A stretch of DNA of 51,596 nt from Woeseiaceae bacterium. GTDB lineage: Bacteria; Pseudomonadota; Gammaproteobacteria; Steroidobacterales; Woeseiaceae. The DNA is taken from the NCBI GenBank assembly GCA_030066655.1, contig JASJBE010000004.1, positions 1-51,596 on the forward strand, given 5' to 3'. Position 1 is the first letter of the stretch, and each line of letters opens with the position of its first letter. Below the pieces are notes generated by a model that saw nothing but the letters and a program-made list of their open reading frames with translations, was not told the origin of the DNA and searched no databases. The translations under genes and the position numbers were made by a program. Shown here in pieces: positions 40,485 through 48,613 of the stretch.

Positions 40485-40522
40485 TTGACTTCGTATGCGC
40501 ATTTCTATCATTCTATGCGCAT
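40485..40522 (+). promoter_or_regulatory. Arginine operon promoter with tandem palindromic boxes
   Basis: TTGACT at 40485-40490 makes a good -35; TATCAT at 40506-40511 is a possible -10, though at a short 15-base spacing. Two copies of the 8-base palindrome ATGCGCAT lie at 40495-40502 and 40515-40522, exactly 20 bases apart, inside and just after the promoter. Tandem boxes on one helix face upstream of argR fit a hexameric ArgR autorepression operator. The bases differ from the E. coli ARG box, so the match is by layout. Confidence 0.55.
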
Positions 40523-40539
40523 ATTTATTCGAGTCAGCC

Positions 40540-40989
40540 ATGCCAACCAGCGTCGAACAGTCCCTTCGCAGGGAAGCCATCTGCAGCCTGCTGCAGCGGG
40601 GGCCTGTCGCCACCCAGCAGTCGCTGGTGGATGCGCTGCGCGCGCAAAAGTTCGAAGCGACGCAATCATCGGTCAGTCGCGACCTCAGAACGATCGGCGC
40701 AATCAAGACCACGCGGGGTTACGAACTGCCAGCGGACGACGCCCCCGCGAACCAGGCGCTGGACGATGCCGCCGAGTTGCTGCGCGGCTTAAGCCCGGCC
40801 GGCAGTCACCTGCTCGTGGTCAGGACCGCGATAGGCGCGGCGCAGCGCGTCGCGCTGGCACTGGACCGCAGCGCCTGGCCCGAGGTCGTCGGCAGTATTG
40901 CCGGTGACGATACCGTCTTTGTTGCCACCGATTCCGCGCAGGGGCAGCGAAACCTGATCGCCAAGATCGAACGTGCAATGGGCGCCTGA
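40540..40989 (+). CDS. argR: Arginine repressor
   Basis: 149 residues, the ArgR norm. The N-terminal winged helix shows RREAICSLLQRGPVATQQSLVDALRAQKFEATQSSVSRDLRTIGAIKT with the SSVSRDL recognition helix. The C-terminal domain has the arginine-binding, hexamer-forming pattern (SHLLVVRTAIGAAQRVALALDRS...VGSIAGDDTVFVATDS). It is the first gene of the arginine operon; argG follows after 16 bases. In-operon argR with boxes over the promoter implies autoregulation of the whole pathway. Confidence 0.95.
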   Translation: MPTSVEQSLRREAICSLLQRGPVATQQSLVDALRAQKFEATQSSVSRDLRTIGAIKTTRGYELPADDAPANQALDDAAELLRGLSPAGSHLLVVRTAIGAAQRVALALDRSAWPEVVGSIAGDDTVFVATDSAQGQRNLIAKIERAMGA

Positions 40990-41005
40990 GCCCGCTGGAG
41001 ACACC

Positions 41006-42211
41006 GTGAGTAATCAATCACCCATCATTCTCGCCTTTTCCGGAGGACTCGACACGAGCTTGTGCGTGCCGTGGCTGAAAGAAACTTACGGACGAGATGT
41101 CATCACAGCCACGGTGGACACCGGCGGCATCGACGACGAAGCGGCGGAGGCGCTCGAGGCCCGGGCGAAAGCACTGGGCGCGATCGAGCACGTCATCGTC
41201 GACGCCAAGTCCGAATTCTTCGATACGGTCATCCGCTACCTGATCTATGGCAACGTCCTGCGCGGCAATGCCTACCCGCTGTGCGTCGGTGCCGAGCGCG
41301 GCCTGCAGGCGCAGAAGCTCGCCGAAGTCGCGACCGAGCGGGGTGCAACGACGGTCGCACACGGTTGCACCGCGGCCGGCAACGACCAGGTTCGATTCGA
41401 GGTCGCTCTGCGCACGCTGAACCCGGACCTCGAGATCCTCGCGCCGGTGCGCGACAACAGCTGGGTCCGGGAGAACCAGCTCGCCTACCTCGAAGAGCAC
41501 GGGCTCCCCCTGCCGGCGCAGGGCTCGGCTTACTCGATTAACCGCGGACTGTGGGGCATTACGATCGGTGGCCAGGAAACGCTGACGTCGGAGCGCTCCA
41601 TACCCGAGTCGGCCTGGGTGCTGTCACCCGACGCATTCAGTGATCCCGTGGAGCCGACGCGGCATTCGCTGGAATTCAATGCAGGTGTGCCCGTCAGCCT
41701 CGACGGCGAAGCCATGGACCCGGTGACGTTGATCGAAGCACTCGAAGTGTTGGCCGGTCGCTACGGCATCGGCCGCGGCATACACTTGGGCGACACGGTC
41801 CTCGGCACAAAGGGCCGAGTCGCGTTCGAAGCGCCCGCGGCGATTACGCTGATCACGGCGCACCGCGAACTCGAAAAGCTGACCTTGAGTGGCCTGCAGT
41901 CGAGGATCAAGGACAGCGTCGCAGCAAGCTACGGCGACTTCGTCCACGAAGGCAAACAGCTGGACCTCGTCTGCGGCGACATCGAGGCGCTCTTGAGCTC
42001 CTCGCAGCAGCGGGTCACGGGCACCGTCAGCTTCACGTTGCGCCCGGGGCAGCTTTTCATCGACGGCGTCACGTCGCCGCACTCCTTACTTAAGGCAACG
42101 CGGGGCGTCTACGGCGAGTCCGCCGGCGAATGGACCGCGGCCGACACGCTGGGCTACGCCAAGGTACTGTCGCTGACCGGCACGCTGCAGACGCGGGCAG
42201 GCGAGACATGA
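41006..42211 (+). CDS. argG: Argininosuccinate synthase
   Basis: 401 residues. The N-type ATP pyrophosphatase loop is LAFSGGLDTSLCVPWLKE; other conserved blocks are AHGCTAAGNDQVRFE, ILAPVRDNSWVRENQLAYLEEHGLP and SINRGLWGITIGG. It joins citrulline and aspartate with ATP. GTG at 41006, with GGAG upstream, gives the family start. The pathway needs free citrulline here, so an N-acylcitrulline deacylase must exist elsewhere in the genome; none is in this operon. The stop overlaps the next start by four bases (ATGA). Confidence 0.95.
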   Translation: MSNQSPIILAFSGGLDTSLCVPWLKETYGRDVITATVDTGGIDDEAAEALEARAKALGAIEHVIVDAKSEFFDTVIRYLIYGNVLRGNAYPLCVGAERGLQAQKLAEVATERGATTVAHGCTAAGNDQVRFEVALRTLNPDLEILAPVRDNSWVRENQLAYLEEHGLPLPAQGSAYSINRGLWGITIGGQETLTSERSIPESAWVLSPDAFSDPVEPTRHSLEFNAGVPVSLDGEAMDPVTLIEALEVLAGRYGIGRGIHLGDTVLGTKGRVAFEAPAAITLITAHRELEKLTLSGLQSRIKDSVAASYGDFVHEGKQLDLVCGDIEALLSSSQQRVTGTVSFTLRPGQLFIDGVTSPHSLLKATRGVYGESAGEWTAADTLGYAKVLSLTGTLQTRAGET

Positions 42212-43263
42212 AAACCGTCATCGTCGACAAGATCGCGTCCGTTGCCCAACACAGTAACCTGAGCAACGAGCTTCGCGTGTCGAAAGACATTCCCTGCGAG
42301 GAAGGGGTGCTCGTTGCGGCGCGCGTCCTGAACAACAAGTCTCGCTACAATCAGCTCGAGCTGACCACCGGGCGCATGGCGACGGTCAACCAGGGCGACG
42401 TCATCGTCGGCGCGCTGGGGCATCGCAAGGCCCTGCGCGGGTACTCCGGTCACCTGCCGGACAGCCTGTCCGTCGGCGACACGATCCAGCTGCTGAACAT
42501 CGGCGGCGTCATGGGGATCTGTGACTCCGCCAACCCGGATGTCGGGCCGCCGTTCGACTGCGAGGTGCTGGGAACGGTGCTGCACTTTCCGTACCTGGGT
42601 GAACGCATTGGCGTGCCGGCAAAGGTGGGTGAGGCTGCTCTCGACGAAGACGTCGAACTGAACATGCACGGCGTCCCCGTCGTCGCGCTGTCAGGCACCT
42701 GCATGGATTCGGGCAAGACGGCCGCCGCGTGCGCGATCGTCAGCCGCCTGCGCCACCAGGGCCTGCACGTTGCTGCCTGCAAGGCGACCGGCGTGTCGCT
42801 GCGTCGTGACATCCTCGCGATGGAAGATGCGGGCGCCGACTCATCCATGATCTTCTCGGACTTCGGCATCGTGACGACAACGGCGCTGAATGGTCCCGCC
42901 CTGACGCGCGCGTTGCTGAGCTCACTGTCGGCCAAACACCCGGACGTTATCGTGCTCGAACTCGGCGACGGCCTGTTGGGCGCCTACGGCGTCGACGCGA
43001 TCCTGTCCGACGAAGCGGTGCGCGAAGCGCTGACGGTCGTCGTCCTGTGCGCGAACGACCCGGTGTCAGCCTGGGGCGGCGTGAAGATCCTGCGCGACGA
43101 CTATGGCATCGAGCCGTCCGTTGTAACCGGACCGGCGACGGACAACGCCGTCGGCGTCGACCAGATCCTCGACAAGGCCGGGCTGCCCGCCATCAACGCG
43201 CTGTCGAACAGCGTCGCGCTCGGCGATCACGTCGTCGCGGGGCTGAAGGAGGCGACGCAATGA
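42208..43263 (+). CDS. Unassigned P-loop protein inside the arginine operon (BioD/DUF1611-like domain)
   Basis: 351 residues in two parts. Residues 1 to about 150 are beta-rich (DIPCEEGVLVAARVLNNKSRYNQLELTTGRMATVNQGDVIVGALGHRKALRGYSG) and not recognised. The second half is a P-loop domain: GTCMDSGKT at 163-171 has the spacing of dethiobiotin synthetase (GTDTxVGKT). It continues with CKATGVSLRRD, DAGADSSMIFSDFG, and VIVLELGDGLLGAYG. This resembles DUF1611/DgcN proteins, whose characterised members N-acetylate D-glutamate, but the N-terminal domain is different. It overlaps argG and argC by four bases each. A role in the missing glutamate N-acylation is plausible and unproven. Confidence 0.85.
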   Translation: MKTVIVDKIASVAQHSNLSNELRVSKDIPCEEGVLVAARVLNNKSRYNQLELTTGRMATVNQGDVIVGALGHRKALRGYSGHLPDSLSVGDTIQLLNIGGVMGICDSANPDVGPPFDCEVLGTVLHFPYLGERIGVPAKVGEAALDEDVELNMHGVPVVALSGTCMDSGKTAAACAIVSRLRHQGLHVAACKATGVSLRRDILAMEDAGADSSMIFSDFGIVTTTALNGPALTRALLSSLSAKHPDVIVLELGDGLLGAYGVDAILSDEAVREALTVVVLCANDPVSAWGGVKILRDDYGIEPSVVTGPATDNAVGVDQILDKAGLPAINALSNSVALGDHVVAGLKEATQ

Positions 43264-44315
43264 CGATCCAGGCCGCGGTTCTCGGTGCGACCGGCTATGT
43301 CGGCGGTGAGCTGCTGCGACTGCTGGCTGCCCACCCCGAATTCGAGGTCGTGGCGGCCGTATCCGACAGCCGGGCGCAGACGGCGCTCGCCGACACGTTT
43401 CCGCATCTTAAAGGCGTTTACCCGGATGCCGTGTTCGCCTCGCACGAGGACTGGGTCGAGCAGCTTGACTCGGGCACATCGCTGGCGCTGTTCTCGGCGG
43501 CCCCGCACGGCATGTCGGCGGCGATGATTGCCGAGGCTCTCTCCCGAGCGGCCGCTCGCAACATCGAAACACACGTTGTCGACGCGTCGGCGGACTTTCG
43601 CTATGCAGACCGGGACGCGTTCAAGGCCGTCTACTCGATTGAACACGGCGCACCGGAACTCTTGGACCAGTTCTCTTCCGGCTTGCCTGAGCACGTGCCC
43701 GGAAAGCCGACGCCGCACATCGGCAACCCGGGCTGCTTCGCGACGGCGATGCTGCTCGGCACGGTGCCGCTGCTTTCAAGTGGCCTCGTTGACGAGCACC
43801 TGTTCATCTCAGGGATAACGGGCAGCACCGGCTCCGGTCGCAACGCATCGGCCGGCACGCATCATCCGGAACGCCACAGCAACCTGTACGCCTACAAGGC
43901 CCTGGAGCACCGGCATGCGCCGGAAGTGGCCGCGATGGCAGAGGCCGCGAGCGGCACGTTGCCAAAACTGCACTTCGTCCCGCACTCAGGTCCCTATGCG
44001 CGCGGCATCCACGCAACGATTCACGCGCGCCTGAACGCAGCGGCCAACCGTGACGACATGCTGCAGCACTTCGAGCAGGCCTACGCCGGCCAGCCGTTTA
44101 TTCGGCTGGTCGACGGAACGCCGAGACTGAAGAATGTCGTCGCCAGCAACTACGCCGAGATCGGTGTAGCGGTGGACGACGAGGCCGTGGTCGCGATGGT
44201 CGCCATCGATAACCTCGTCAAGGGCGCCGCCGGCGGCGCCGTTCAGTGGATGAACCGGCTCTGGGACCTCGACGATGCCCGGGGCCTCGAAGCCGCAGCG
44301 CCGGCATGGACGTAA
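43260..44315 (+). CDS. argC: N-acetyl-gamma-glutamyl-phosphate reductase (or N-succinyl form)
   Basis: 351 residues. NAD(P)-binding loop GATGYVGGELLRLL, catalytic Cys in HIGNPGCFATAML, GITGSTGSGRNAS and the histidine in HFVPHSGPYARGIHATIHA are all present. It reduces N-acylglutamyl phosphate to the semialdehyde. ATG at 43260 overlaps the P-loop gene by four bases. Whether the acyl group is acetyl or succinyl cannot be read from this enzyme. The length and motifs are normal. Confidence 0.94.
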   Translation: MTIQAAVLGATGYVGGELLRLLAAHPEFEVVAAVSDSRAQTALADTFPHLKGVYPDAVFASHEDWVEQLDSGTSLALFSAAPHGMSAAMIAEALSRAAARNIETHVVDASADFRYADRDAFKAVYSIEHGAPELLDQFSSGLPEHVPGKPTPHIGNPGCFATAMLLGTVPLLSSGLVDEHLFISGITGSTGSGRNASAGTHHPERHSNLYAYKALEHRHAPEVAAMAEAASGTLPKLHFVPHSGPYARGIHATIHARLNAAANRDDMLQHFEQAYAGQPFIRLVDGTPRLKNVVASNYAEIGVAVDDEAVVAMVAIDNLVKGAAGGAVQWMNRLWDLDDARGLEAAAPAWT

Positions 44316-44319
44316 CAGC

Positions 44320-45492
44320 ATGAACGCAGACATGGACCCGAGACCCCGCGAAGCCGCCGTGACGATGCCCGTTTACGGACAGCTACCGTTCGTCCCGGTG
44401 CGCGCGGCCGGCTGCGACATCATCACCGACGACGGACGGCGAATCCTCGATCTCTACGGCGGACACGCGGTAGCCGCGCTGGGTTATGGTCACCCGGCGC
44501 TGACCGAGGCGATCAGGCGCCAGGCCGAGAACCTGCTGTTCCAGAGCAACGCCGTCGCCCTCGCCGTGCGAGCCGAGGCCGCAGAAAAACTGTTGTCGGT
44601 CGCTCCGGACAGGCTCGGCAGCGTGCTGTTCGTCAACTCAGGGGCCGAAGCCAACGAGAACGCGTTGCGCATGGCGTGTCGTGTTACCGGACGCGACCGC
44701 ATTCTGTCGATCACGCATGGATTCCACGGCCGGACCGCGGCCGCGTCGGCGGTAACGTGGAACTCCGATCGCTGGTATGGCTTCCCCAAAAAGCCTTTCG
44801 ACGTCGACTTCATCCCTCGAGACGACTGCGATGCAGCGATACGCATGATCGATGACGACGTCGCCGCTGTCATTGTCGAACCGATACAGGGCGTCGCCGG
44901 CGGCTATGACCTGTCGAACGAATTCCTGACAACGATCCGGCAGGAAACCGAAAAGCACGGTGTCCTGATGATCGCCGACGAAGTTCAGACCGGCATGGGT
45001 AGATCGGGACACTTCTTCGCGGTGCAGGCGCACGGCATCGAGCCGGACCTGTTGACCGCGGCGAAGTCGCTCGGTGGCGGCGTACCCTGCGGCGCCGTAT
45101 TGGCGTCGAGTGACGTTGCATCCGCGTTTAGCGTCGGCGACCTCGGCACTACGTTCGGTGGCGGGCCGATGGCCGCCGCGGCGATCACGACGGTCATCGA
45201 GACGATCCAGAAAGAAAACCTGCTGCAGAACGTGCGCGATCGAGAGGCGCAAATCCGCGAGCAGTGCGTGACCGGCCCCGTCGAGAAGATCCAGGGCATG
45301 GGCCTGCTGCTCGGCCTGATCTGTGACCGGCCGGCGAAGGAGGTTCGCGACGCGCTTTTAGAACACGACGTCCTCGCGGGCACCAGCGCAGACCCGCATT
45401 CGCTCAGGATACTCGCGCCGTTGGTCATCGGCCAAGAACACGTTAATCACTTGTCAGAGGCCCTGGCGTCGATTCCGCCGGGCAACCACTAG
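44320..45492 (+). CDS. argD: N-acylornithine aminotransferase
   Basis: 390 residues, class III PLP aminotransferase. ILDLYGGHAVAALGYGHPA, NSGAEANENALRMA, HGFHGRTAAASAVT, DEVQTGMGRSG and the PLP Lys in TAAKSLGGGVPCGA are present. It makes N-acylornithine from the semialdehyde and glutamate. The first ATG in good context is 44320, four bases after argC; the frame extends back to 44275 inside argC. Related enzymes accept acetyl- and succinylornithine alike, so it does not settle the acyl group. Confidence 0.94.
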   Translation: MNADMDPRPREAAVTMPVYGQLPFVPVRAAGCDIITDDGRRILDLYGGHAVAALGYGHPALTEAIRRQAENLLFQSNAVALAVRAEAAEKLLSVAPDRLGSVLFVNSGAEANENALRMACRVTGRDRILSITHGFHGRTAAASAVTWNSDRWYGFPKKPFDVDFIPRDDCDAAIRMIDDDVAAVIVEPIQGVAGGYDLSNEFLTTIRQETEKHGVLMIADEVQTGMGRSGHFFAVQAHGIEPDLLTAAKSLGGGVPCGAVLASSDVASAFSVGDLGTTFGGGPMAAAAITTVIETIQKENLLQNVRDREAQIREQCVTGPVEKIQGMGLLLGLICDRPAKEVRDALLEHDVLAGTSADPHSLRILAPLVIGQEHVNHLSEALASIPPGNH

Positions 45493-45501
45493 GAAACACG
45501 A

Positions 45502-46506
45502 ATGAAAGCATTCAACGATCTCGCCGACTTTTCCAACGATGAAATCGCCGCGCTGCTCGCGCTGGCCAATCGACTGGACGATCATCCGGAGCCGGAGGCG
45601 CTAAAGGGTAAAGTCCTGTCGCTGCTCTTTTTGAGCCCGTCACTGCGAACGCTCGCCTCGTTCCAGGCGGCGATGGTTCGCCTAGGCGGCGGTTCTTTCG
45701 TCATCTCACCGGACATGTCGATCCACGGCCTCGAGACTCGCCCCGGCATCGTCATGGACGGCACGGCCGCTGAGCATATTCGCGAAGCGGTGCCGGTCAT
45801 CGCGTCCTACGGCGACGCCATCGGCATTCGAGCGTTCGCCGAGCGCAAGAACCTCGAGACCGACATGGCGGAGACCGAGTTCAGCTCGCTGACGGACCTG
45901 ATCGACACGCCGTACATCAACATGGAATCGGCGATGGGTCATCCGTGCCAGAATCTCGCGGACTGGAAGACGATGGACGACCTGTCGATCCCGTCGAACG
46001 GCAAATTCGTCCTGAGCTGGGCCTACCACCCGAAGGCGCTGCCGCTCGCGGTGCCGGCATCCACGTTGTACACGGCCGCGAGGCGCGGCATGAATGTGAC
46101 CGTGCTGCGTCCCGAGGGCTTCGAGCTGCCGGAACCGATCATGGAAAAATCCAGGTCCGCGGCCGAGGCGGCCGGCGGTTCCGTCGTCGAGACGGACGAC
46201 CGGACCGAGGCGATGGAGGGTGCGCAGGTGATCTACGCCAAGTCGTGGTCGTCAACCGCGCACTACGGCGACAAACTCGCCGACCAGAAACTGCGCAACG
46301 GACTGGAAAGCTGGTGCGTTGACGACCCGTGGTTCGACAACGCGGCTGACGACTGTCGCTTCATGCACTGCCTGCCGGTGCGCCGAGGCGTCGTCGTCAG
46401 CGAGTCGGTACTCGATGGACCGCGCAGCGTCGTCATCCACGAGGCGCGCAACCGAATGCTCGCGCAGATGGCGGTCCTCTACCAGATGATGGGAGCCGGC
46501 GCGTGA
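45502..46506 (+). CDS. N-acylornithine carbamoyltransferase, predicted N-succinyl type
   Basis: 334 residues. The carbamoyl phosphate loop is FLSPSLRTLASF, and HPCQNLADW and HCLPVRRG complete the active site. It belongs to the AOTCase/SOTCase group (LETRPGIVMDGTAAEH...YINMESAMGHPCQ, WAYHPKALPLAVP), not to ornithine carbamoyltransferases. The residue that sets acyl specificity (Glu92 in Xanthomonas AOTCase, Pro90 in Bacteroides SOTCase) is Ala90 here. Published Glu-to-Ala exchange turned AOTCase into SOTCase. The position of the carboxylated Lys302 of AOTCase appears to be Val. These alignments are by eye and memory. It carbamoylates N-acylornithine to N-acylcitrulline. Confidence 0.9.
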   Translation: MKAFNDLADFSNDEIAALLALANRLDDHPEPEALKGKVLSLLFLSPSLRTLASFQAAMVRLGGGSFVISPDMSIHGLETRPGIVMDGTAAEHIREAVPVIASYGDAIGIRAFAERKNLETDMAETEFSSLTDLIDTPYINMESAMGHPCQNLADWKTMDDLSIPSNGKFVLSWAYHPKALPLAVPASTLYTAARRGMNVTVLRPEGFELPEPIMEKSRSAAEAAGGSVVETDDRTEAMEGAQVIYAKSWSSTAHYGDKLADQKLRNGLESWCVDDPWFDNAADDCRFMHCLPVRRGVVVSESVLDGPRSVVIHEARNRMLAQMAVLYQMMGAGA

Positions 46507-47432
46507 GCACATCGAGAGATCGTGCCATCGTCGTATCCGCGCTGAAGCACGCGGCGCCGTACATCCGCCTGTTCAAAGGCAAGGTCTTCGTGTTGAAAGT
46601 CGGCGGCGAAGTCTTCGCCGACGCGGAGCACACCCGCGCCTTCATCGAACAGGTCGGCCTGCTGCACCAGGTGGGCATTCGCGTCGTGCTCATTCACGGC
46701 GGCGGCCCGCAGTCGACCGAACTCGCGAGCGCCTTGGGCATTAGCACGACCTTCGTCGACGGGCGACGCGTGACCGATGACGCATCGCTCGATGTCGCGA
46801 CGATGGTCCTGAATGGCCAGATCAACACGCGCATTCTCGCGGTTTGCCGCGACCTGCAGGTGCCTGCGGTCGGCATCAGCGGCGTCGACGCGGGCCTGAT
46901 CCAGGCACACCGGCGACCCCCGGTCGACCGCGGCGATGACGAGCCGGTGGACTACGGTTTCGTCGGCGATATCGACGGCGTCAATGCGGACATCCTGAAA
47001 AAACAGCTCGACAACGGCCTGATGCCGGTCGTAAGCCCCTTATCCTGCGATGAGACCGGCACGCTGTTGAACATCAACGCCGACACGGTCGCCGCCGCAA
47101 TCGCAGCCGAACTCGATGCCGAGAAGCTGATATTAGCGACCGGCGCCGCCGGCGTACTCGAGGACGTCAACGATCCGCAATCGCTGATCTCTTACATCGA
47201 TCGCGCCGACCTCGAACGACTCAAGTCCGAAGGCAAGCTGGCCGACGGCATGCTGCCAAAGGCGGCTGCCATCGATAACGCGCTTGCCAACGGCGTCAAG
47301 CGCGTGCACGTGATCTCCTACAAGTTGCCCGACAGCCTGTTGCTGGAAGTGTTCACCAACGAGGGCAACGGCACGCTGGTCGTCAACGACATCGCGGCAT
47401 TGTCCGCCGCCGAACAGGGCGACACGGCGTGA
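46503..47432 (+). CDS. argB: N-acylglutamate kinase
   Basis: 309 residues, amino acid kinase family. FVLKVGGEVFAD, LIHGGGPQSTELASALG, DGRRVTDDASLDVATMVLNGQIN, and GTLLNINADTVAAAIAAELDAEKLILAT are the expected blocks. It phosphorylates N-acylglutamate. GTG at 46503 overlaps the previous stop by four bases, and the end overlaps argH by four. In Xanthomonas the kinase is fused to a GNAT N-acetylglutamate synthase; this protein ends after the kinase fold, so the synthase is missing. Confidence 0.94.
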   Translation: MSTSRDRAIVVSALKHAAPYIRLFKGKVFVLKVGGEVFADAEHTRAFIEQVGLLHQVGIRVVLIHGGGPQSTELASALGISTTFVDGRRVTDDASLDVATMVLNGQINTRILAVCRDLQVPAVGISGVDAGLIQAHRRPPVDRGDDEPVDYGFVGDIDGVNADILKKQLDNGLMPVVSPLSCDETGTLLNINADTVAAAIAAELDAEKLILATGAAGVLEDVNDPQSLISYIDRADLERLKSEGKLADGMLPKAAAIDNALANGVKRVHVISYKLPDSLLLEVFTNEGNGTLVVNDIAALSAAEQGDTA

Positions 47433-48613
47433 GCCGTCTGTGGGAAAAGGGCCTGCCCTTGGACGAACGTGTGCTGCGCTACACGGCGGGTGAAGACCAC
47501 TTGCTGGATGAACGCCTGGTCGCCTACGACGTAAAGGGCTCGATCGCGCATGCCGAGATGCTCGCAGCGACCGGGCTGATCAGTGAGCAGGACTGCCAAG
47601 GCATCACGGCGGGCCTCAACGACCTGCTCAGCTCATTCGAGAAGGGCGAGTGGGCCATTTCGCTGGCCGATGAAGACGTGCACACGGCGCTGGAGACGCG
47701 CCTGACCGACGCGATCGGGCCGGCCGGTGGGCGACTGCACCTCGGACGCTCCCGGAATGACCAGGTGCTAACCGCGCTTCGCCTGTACTTAAAGGACGCA
47801 GCGGCCGACATCATCGAACGCGTTGACGCGCTGAACGCCGAACTCGACGCGCTGACCGACCGCCAGGGCGAGTTCGAGCTGCCGGGCTACACGCACATGC
47901 AGCATGCGATGCCCTCCTCGGTCAGCCTGTGGTGCGGCGGCTTTCGCGAGGCGTTTCTCGACGCTTCCGAGGGTCTGCAGGCGGCGCGGCGCCGTGCGGA
48001 CAAGAACCCGCTGGGCAGCGCGGCCGGTTACGGCACGCCGGGCCTGCCACTCGACCGTGCGCTGACGACGAACAAACTCGGATTCGCATCGACACAGGAA
48101 CCGGTCACCGCCGTGCAACTGTCGCGTGGCAAGGCCGAGAGCAGCCTGCTGTTCGAGTTAACGCTGTTGCTGATGGATATCGGCCGCATCGCGTCCGACC
48201 TGCTGCTCTTCTACACGCAGGAGTTTGCCTACATCCGCCTGGCGCCCGAAGTCACGACGGGCTCGTCGATCATGCCGCAGAAGCGCAACCCGGACGTCCT
48301 CGAACTGTTGCGAGCGTCGTCGGCAACGGCACACGCCTGCCTCGACGAGGCGCTGATGATCACGGCGAAGCTGCCGTCGGGCTACCACCGCGACCTGCAG
48401 CGCCTGAAGGCGCCGCTGTTCCGCTCCATCGACCTGACCATCGACAGCGTCGACATTCTGGCGTTCCTGATCTCGGGCATGGAGTTCCGTCCCGAGAATA
48501 TCCGCCTCGACGACGGTATCTTCGCGACGGCAGAGGCCTATCGCCTGGTCACCGAGGAAGGCATCCCGTTCCGGGAGGCCTACCGCCAGGTCGCGAGCCG
48601 TTATGCCAAGTAG
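47429..48613 (+). CDS. argH: Argininosuccinate lyase, short C-terminus
   Basis: 394 residues. Fumarase/lyase superfamily motifs are complete: DEDVHTALETRL, HLGRSRNDQVLTALRLYL, PGYTHMQHAMPSS, NPLGSAAGYGTPGLPLDR and the signature GSSIMPQKRNPD. It releases arginine and fumarate. The protein stops after IPFREAYRQVASRYAK, about 60 residues short of the E. coli enzyme, losing the C-terminal helical domain; no continuation exists in another frame. Active-site elements are upstream of this, so activity is likely kept. It is the last gene of the operon. Confidence 0.93.
   Translation: MSRLWEKGLPLDERVLRYTAGEDHLLDERLVAYDVKGSIAHAEMLAATGLISEQDCQGITAGLNDLLSSFEKGEWAISLADEDVHTALETRLTDAIGPAGGRLHLGRSRNDQVLTALRLYLKDAAADIIERVDALNAELDALTDRQGEFELPGYTHMQHAMPSSVSLWCGGFREAFLDASEGLQAARRRADKNPLGSAAGYGTPGLPLDRALTTNKLGFASTQEPVTAVQLSRGKAESSLLFELTLLLMDIGRIASDLLLFYTQEFAYIRLAPEVTTGSSIMPQKRNPDVLELLRASSATAHACLDEALMITAKLPSGYHRDLQRLKAPLFRSIDLTIDSVDILAFLISGMEFRPENIRLDDGIFATAEAYRLVTEEGIPFREAYRQVASRYAK

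Follow-up and report, generated by a model that had tools for sequence, protein, structure and literature searches.

The window analysed here, a 51,596-nucleotide stretch from a Woeseiaceae bacterium (GenBank assembly GCA_030066655.1, contig JASJBE010000004.1), carries an arginine operon in which a gene for a 351-residue P-loop protein, designated X, lies between argG and argC. The Woeseiaceae are sea-floor bacteria. Arginine synthesis is committed by the formation of N-acylglutamate, a step for which the only solutions that we know of are the GNAT enzymes and ArgJ. We propose, with a probability of about 0.72, that X acylates L-glutamate to N-acyl-L-glutamate, whatever the donor, and that the product in Woeseiaceae is probably N-succinyl-L-glutamate. 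The first-pass annotation, made from the letters of the window, had predicted a non-GNAT glutamate N-acyltransferase, by way of a kinship with the D-glutamate N-acetyltransferase DgcN, or else another step specific to this arginine route. The predicted step is well supported, because X has a constant gene context, is absent where ArgB is fused to an N-acetylglutamate synthase (NAGS), and occurs in genomes in which ArgJ and ArgA were sought and not found; the link to DgcN is weak. The gene and its motif are located as follows.

42208..43263, + strand: X, 351-residue P-loop protein, predicted N-acyl(succinyl)-L-glutamate synthase (open reading frame; Pfam, NCBIfam and PDB scans; relatives)
42694..42720, + strand: Walker A motif of X, GTCMDSGKT, residues 163-171

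X consists of a beta-rich N-terminal domain (residues ∼1-150) and a P-loop domain resembling those of BioD, CTP synthase and DUF1611 (residues ∼155-351). A scan of GTDB genome contigs yielded 41 relatives, assigned to Woeseiaceae (21), Gammaproteobacteria (12), Proteobacteria (7) and Chromatiales (1). Differences between X and its relatives fall mostly at the third codon position (51, 35 and 189 at positions one to three for L005; 11, 5 and 104 for L003, a 97% identical relative from the Woeseiaceae). This bias and the conservation among relatives establish X as a real gene and rule out a chance reading frame. The median identity to the window across 40 relatives is 78.9% for X, close to the values for argG (79.6%), argB (81.1%) and the carbamoyltransferase gene argF' (82.7%), and well above that for argC (59.6%). 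Set A4 comprises 38 relatives out of the 41 together with the window, omitting L024 (late start), L037 (longer match) and L043 (cut); sets A1, A2, A5 and A6 are smaller selections. The match in L037 (positions 347-1627) spans 1,281 bases, compared with the usual ∼1,050.

The operon runs argR-argG-X-argC-argD-argF'-argB-argH, an order supported by Pfam and NCBIfam, with genes that overlap or lie no more than 10 bases apart:

40495..40989, + strand: argR-like repressor; both Arg_repressor Pfam domains over cut-off, TIGR01529 at 98 bits, below its cut-off of 130
40973..42211, + strand: argG, argininosuccinate synthase; TIGR00032 at 305 bits (cut-off 268)
43260..44315, + strand: argC, N-acyl-gamma-glutamyl-phosphate reductase; TIGR01850 at 305 bits (cut-off 234)
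44320..45492, + strand: argD, acylornithine aminotransferase; TIGR00707 at 334 bits, below its cut-off of 410, over the Pfam cut-off
45502..46506, + strand: argF', knotted-type acylornithine carbamoyltransferase with succinyl-type triplet A90/P181/V298; NCBIfam acetyl-type model at 314 bits (cut-off 288)
46503..47432, + strand: argB, stand-alone N-acylglutamate kinase of 309 residues without a GNAT domain; TIGR00761 at 218 bits (cut-off 151)
47429..48613, + strand: argH, argininosuccinate lyase with no GNAT extension; TIGR00838 at 310 bits (cut-off 280)

X overlaps the end of argG (42211) and the start of argC (43260) with the sequence ATGA at both junctions, so the reading frame, its P-loop and the two four-base overlaps are as first described. 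The same holds for the inventory of argR, G, C, D, carbamoyltransferase, B and H: neither an ArgJ nor a GNAT domain was found in the eight proteins scanned. AA_kinase is the sole Pfam domain of ArgB, X has no match to the ArgJ domain (PF01960), and even at E ≤ 1 Pfam detected no acetyltransferase domain in any of X, ArgB and ArgH.

How often X occupies this position had been put forward as a check on its role. In all 41 relatives, argC lies directly 3′ of X, and argG lies directly 5′ in 40, the exception being a contig (L043) that starts inside X. Among 398 genomes sampled from the phylum, the window's own included, the sole other genome with a close X is G328, a member of another class with the cluster argR-X-argC-argB; a match in G224 was among genes that resemble molybdenum-cofactor genes by eye and was excluded from the count. 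The G328 protein nests among Woeseiaceae-type X beside L040 (tree support 100/99), which suggests acquisition by horizontal transfer. Some match to X was present in 12 of 240 genomes of the class of G328. Three genomes of this other class (G328, G669 and G483) have X proteins 32-63% identical to that of the window and adjoining argC-argB, with the loci X-argC-argB-argD-OTCase in G669 (39% identity; OTCase, ornithine carbamoyltransferase) and X-argC-argB in G483 (32%), whose small genome is a single contig. Within the order of G483, X occurs in 42 of 162 genomes, and all of these belong to just one of its seven genera. Thirty of these 42 were inspected for gene neighbours (X is in two pieces in G786): argC adjoins X in all 30 loci and argB follows in 27, the match ending within argC in the other three. 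In a tree of nine X proteins and 16 paralogues, a single branch (96/87) separates the arginine-linked X from the paralogues, subject to a long-branch warning that includes the X of G483.

A replacement pattern is apparent among 61 genomes of the window's family, the Woeseiaceae. Arginine-type X is present in 44 of these (including G046 and G048, in which X is cut or split), and in every one of them ArgB stands alone, its match to the NAGS/K (NAGS-kinase) model ending before the GNAT part. G011 and G018 encode a fusion of ArgB with NAGS, at 602 and 528 bits over a model cut-off of 426, and both are without X. Their operon reads argF'-argG-M20-NAGS/K-argC, in which the M20 protein between argG and the fused argB scores 355 and 478 bits against an acetylornithine deacetylase model with a cut-off of 345. 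Fisher's test on the pattern gives p = 2e-12, uncorrected for relatedness. Two further genomes (G059 and G060) have stand-alone ArgB with no X seen, on contigs that start inside the operon, within argC and argF'. The remaining 13 have neither argB (at E 1e-6) nor arginine-type X: three are incomplete (52-86%) and come from a single genus, and ten (72-95% complete) come from the genus of G018. These ten (G012, G022, G025, G028, G031, G034, G037, G040, G042 and G044), several of them incomplete, have a gene content that suggests arginine auxotrophy. The NAGS/K fusion (PRK04531 models), known from Xanthomonas and reportedly also present in Maricaulis, would fill the same step as X in two family members that lack X; it carries a GNAT domain on ArgB and is paired with a carbamoyltransferase of the E/N/K type (see below), whereas X has no GNAT domain.

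The known synthases were sought in the genomes, as likewise suggested at the outset. ArgJ (PF01960) is absent from 60 of the 61 family genomes, the window's own among them; the other (G015) has a 49-position ArgJ fragment and also X. A second search found no ArgJ in six of six genomes, including G328, G483 and G669. The cut-off of the ArgA model was reached in none of the 15 genomes tested, in which the model matched the ArgB kinase and, in nine, weak GNATs; in G002, G004, G007, G328, G483 and G669, no GNAT matched this model at E ≤ 0.01. The window's own genome has 22 matches to PF00583 (GNAT), and all 22 were scanned against NCBIfam: one RimI and one ArsN2 exceeded their cut-offs, and no NAGS did.

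Several observations weigh against the assignment of glutamate acylation to X. The own genome is 91.5% complete, its PF00583 survey covers that genome alone, and a synthase of the BT3761 type could escape the models used. Together with the 22 GNAT matches and the weak ArgA-model matches in 9 of 15 genomes, the ArsN2-like GNAT, which resembles amino-acid acetyltransferases weakly and below cut-off (32 bits vs 180), would fit a scheme in which an unrecognised GNAT elsewhere makes N-acylglutamate and X assists or regulates ArgB/ArgC. In Bacteroides this step is ascribed to a GNAT (PMC7311316). We consider this scheme improbable, given that X is missing from both fusion genomes, that in those six genomes no GNAT matches the ArgA model at this threshold, and that X is conserved about as well as argG, argB and argF'. 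The two fusion genomes may represent one event, and the pattern in the genus of G018 is not clean, as its member G046 has a cut X and stand-alone ArgB. The ArgB proteins of G669 (149 bits) and G483 (123 bits) fall below the cut-off of 151, and the commonest neighbours of the paralogues, ABC-type proteins (8 of 16), are uninformative on acylation. Context alone cannot separate acylation from another step tied to ArgB and ArgC. Finally, both fusion operons contain the M20 protein and the window operon has no deacylase gene, so the exchange concerns two functions; X might act at a different acyl-handling step, either deacylation of acyl-citrulline or an ArgJ-like return of the acyl group to glutamate. 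We assign this a very small probability: hydrolysis does not need an NTP-binding P-loop, X accompanies argC-argB even beside the plain OTCase of G669, and M20 matches were present in seven of seven genomes searched.

The carbamoyltransferase points to the nature of the acyl group. According to PMC4581275, residues E/N/K at positions 92/185/302 mark acetylornithine carbamoyltransferase (AOTCase), and A/S/P/V/Q, P and V/I/E mark succinylornithine carbamoyltransferase (SOTCase). The window ArgF' follows the succinyl-type rule, with A, P and V at these AOTCase positions. Among 37 ArgF' proteins of X-type operons, 35 have A/P/V, one A/P/A and one A/P with the third residue unread, and both fusion operons encode E/N/K. 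The 37 comprise 33 found among the 41 loci, the window, L218, L219 and L220; L218 and L219 are counted as X-type though X is not visible there, and the OTCase of L121 is not counted. The best PDB match of the window ArgF' is chain 3l02, by a margin of ∼1 bit, and it has Ala where 3m4n has Glu92. These residues suggest that the intermediates in Woeseiaceae are probably succinylated rather than acetylated. Against this stands the claim on ArgF' by the N-acetylornithine carbamoyltransferase model NF003384 (314 bits; cut-off 288). That name alone is not decisive, because the succinyl carbamoyltransferase of Bacteroides had been misannotated as an acetyl enzyme (PMC7311316). The same source describes a succinylated arginine route in Bacteroides; its SOTCase (PMC4581275) shares the succinyl-type triplet with the window ArgF', and its first step is ascribed to a GNAT (BT3761), in contrast to the P-loop protein proposed for Woeseiaceae. 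A second qualification concerns G669, whose carbamoyltransferase is a plain OTCase, at 377 bits over a cut-off of 306, so that a succinyl group is not implied there. In G046, a dapE gene for succinyl-diaminopimelate desuccinylase (L220:2474-3637; 548 bits, cut-off 362) ends ∼130 bases away from where argH ends, placing a desuccinylase near a putative succinylated arginine route.

The absence of acetyl-type residues in ArgF' also leaves room for a group larger than acetyl, and P-loop ligase chemistry would permit other acids; X could accordingly attach glutamate to some other blocking group, for instance a LysW-like carrier protein or another dicarboxylate. We hold this very unlikely: genes that overlap or lie at most 10 bases apart leave no space for a carrier gene in the operon (the rest of the genome was not searched), and the window ArgB scores 218 bits, over cut-off, as an acetylglutamate kinase, compared with 138 bits, below cut-off, for LysW-type kinases.

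X itself reaches the cut-off of no Pfam or NCBIfam model and has no match among PDB sequences, its N-terminal domain included, and its best weak matches are all P-loop models (MobB, DUF1611 and BioD). Assignment to BioD dethiobiotin synthetase is rejected at 12.9 bits for TIGR00347 (cut-off 83.3), and assignment to MobB at 18.4 bits for PF03205 (cut-off 26.6) and 25.6 bits for TIGR00176 (cut-off 76.2), though one paralogue (L076) passes PF03205 at 28.2 bits. Membership in DUF1611/DgcN is rejected similarly: X scores 12.2 bits against PF07755 (cut-off 25), a profile-profile comparison gives a probability of 1.9% (E 0.026), and the motifs differ, with GTCMDSGKT and an acidic ELGDG in X and GTDCxxGK[MKR] and EGQG in the 20 DUF1611 members fetched. 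The modelled P-loop domain of X resembles that of DUF1611 proteins (PDB 7xrj, 2g0t and 2obn) in fold, but CTP synthase and BioD match it nearly equally well; the link to DgcN, from which X differs also by its setting in an arginine operon, appears weak and confined to the fold. From BioD and the synthetase domain of CTP synthase, X differs by its extra N-terminal domain and its gene context. The window's own genome has no PF07755 match, and Woeseiales are listed as dgcN carriers in a Mariana Trench paper (PMC12363236).

The residue after the Walker A Lys bears on the mechanism. Thr at this position is a usual Mg-NTP ligand; a GK[TS] Walker A is found in four of four X lineages and in 16 of 16 paralogues, and the 20 DUF1611 proteins all have Met, Lys or Arg. 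That X retains this Thr makes ATP-driven acylation plausible, and we tentatively suggest such a ligase form within the proposed step. Mg-ATP bound at the P-loop would convert the acyl carboxylate into an acyl phosphate, as in other SIMIBI P-loop enzymes, and the glutamate amine would attack it. The main alternative is a DgcN-like, acyl-CoA-dependent transfer, where the P-loop would bind the CoA pyrophosphate. It would serve the same step, and the resemblance in fold is compatible with it; the retained Thr, the PF07755 score far below cut-off and the nearly equal fold matches to CTP synthase and BioD make it somewhat less likely than the ligase form. In the proposed pathway, X would stand in for ArgA, ArgJ and GNAT-fused synthases at the first committed step, acylating the alpha-amino group of L-glutamate, in Woeseiaceae most likely with succinyl. 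ArgB, ArgC and ArgD would convert the acylated intermediate to acyl-ornithine, ArgF' would carbamoylate it, and a deacylase encoded outside the operon would release citrulline for ArgG and ArgH.

A second match to X, a paralogue, is found in 21 of the 61 family genomes. That of the window's own genome (L079; G000:C7:11020-12120) is 28-31% identical and adjoins an open reading frame of 495 residues without a Pfam match. Four of the 16 paralogues adjoin amide hydrolases. Two related loci (L128:8325-10316 and L129:3043-5021) have the paralogue directly beside an Asparaginase_2 protein (isoaspartyl peptidase-like), possibly an amide-making and amide-breaking pair. The paralogues nearest X in the tree (L077:8633-10841 and L123:9330-11704) adjoin M20 proteins that resemble glutamate carboxypeptidase below cut-off. 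It is conceivable, at less than even odds, that X founds a new ligase family, P-loop enzymes that use ATP to couple L-glutamate, by way of an acyl phosphate, to succinate or some other small acid and so start arginine synthesis without acetyl-CoA. Members of the wider family (X2) would then make different amides, with hydrolases or ABC proteins as the partners that handle them.

If the proposed function is correct, a P-loop enzyme would be a third, unrelated solution to N-acylglutamate synthesis besides the GNAT enzymes and ArgJ, and a family without a Pfam or NCBIfam match over cut-off would gain a function. Automatic predictions of arginine auxotrophy could change. The succinylated arginine route would extend beyond the Bacteroidetes treated in PMC7311316, and the gap in the arginine pathway would be closed in the Woeseiaceae and in a lineage with small genomes.
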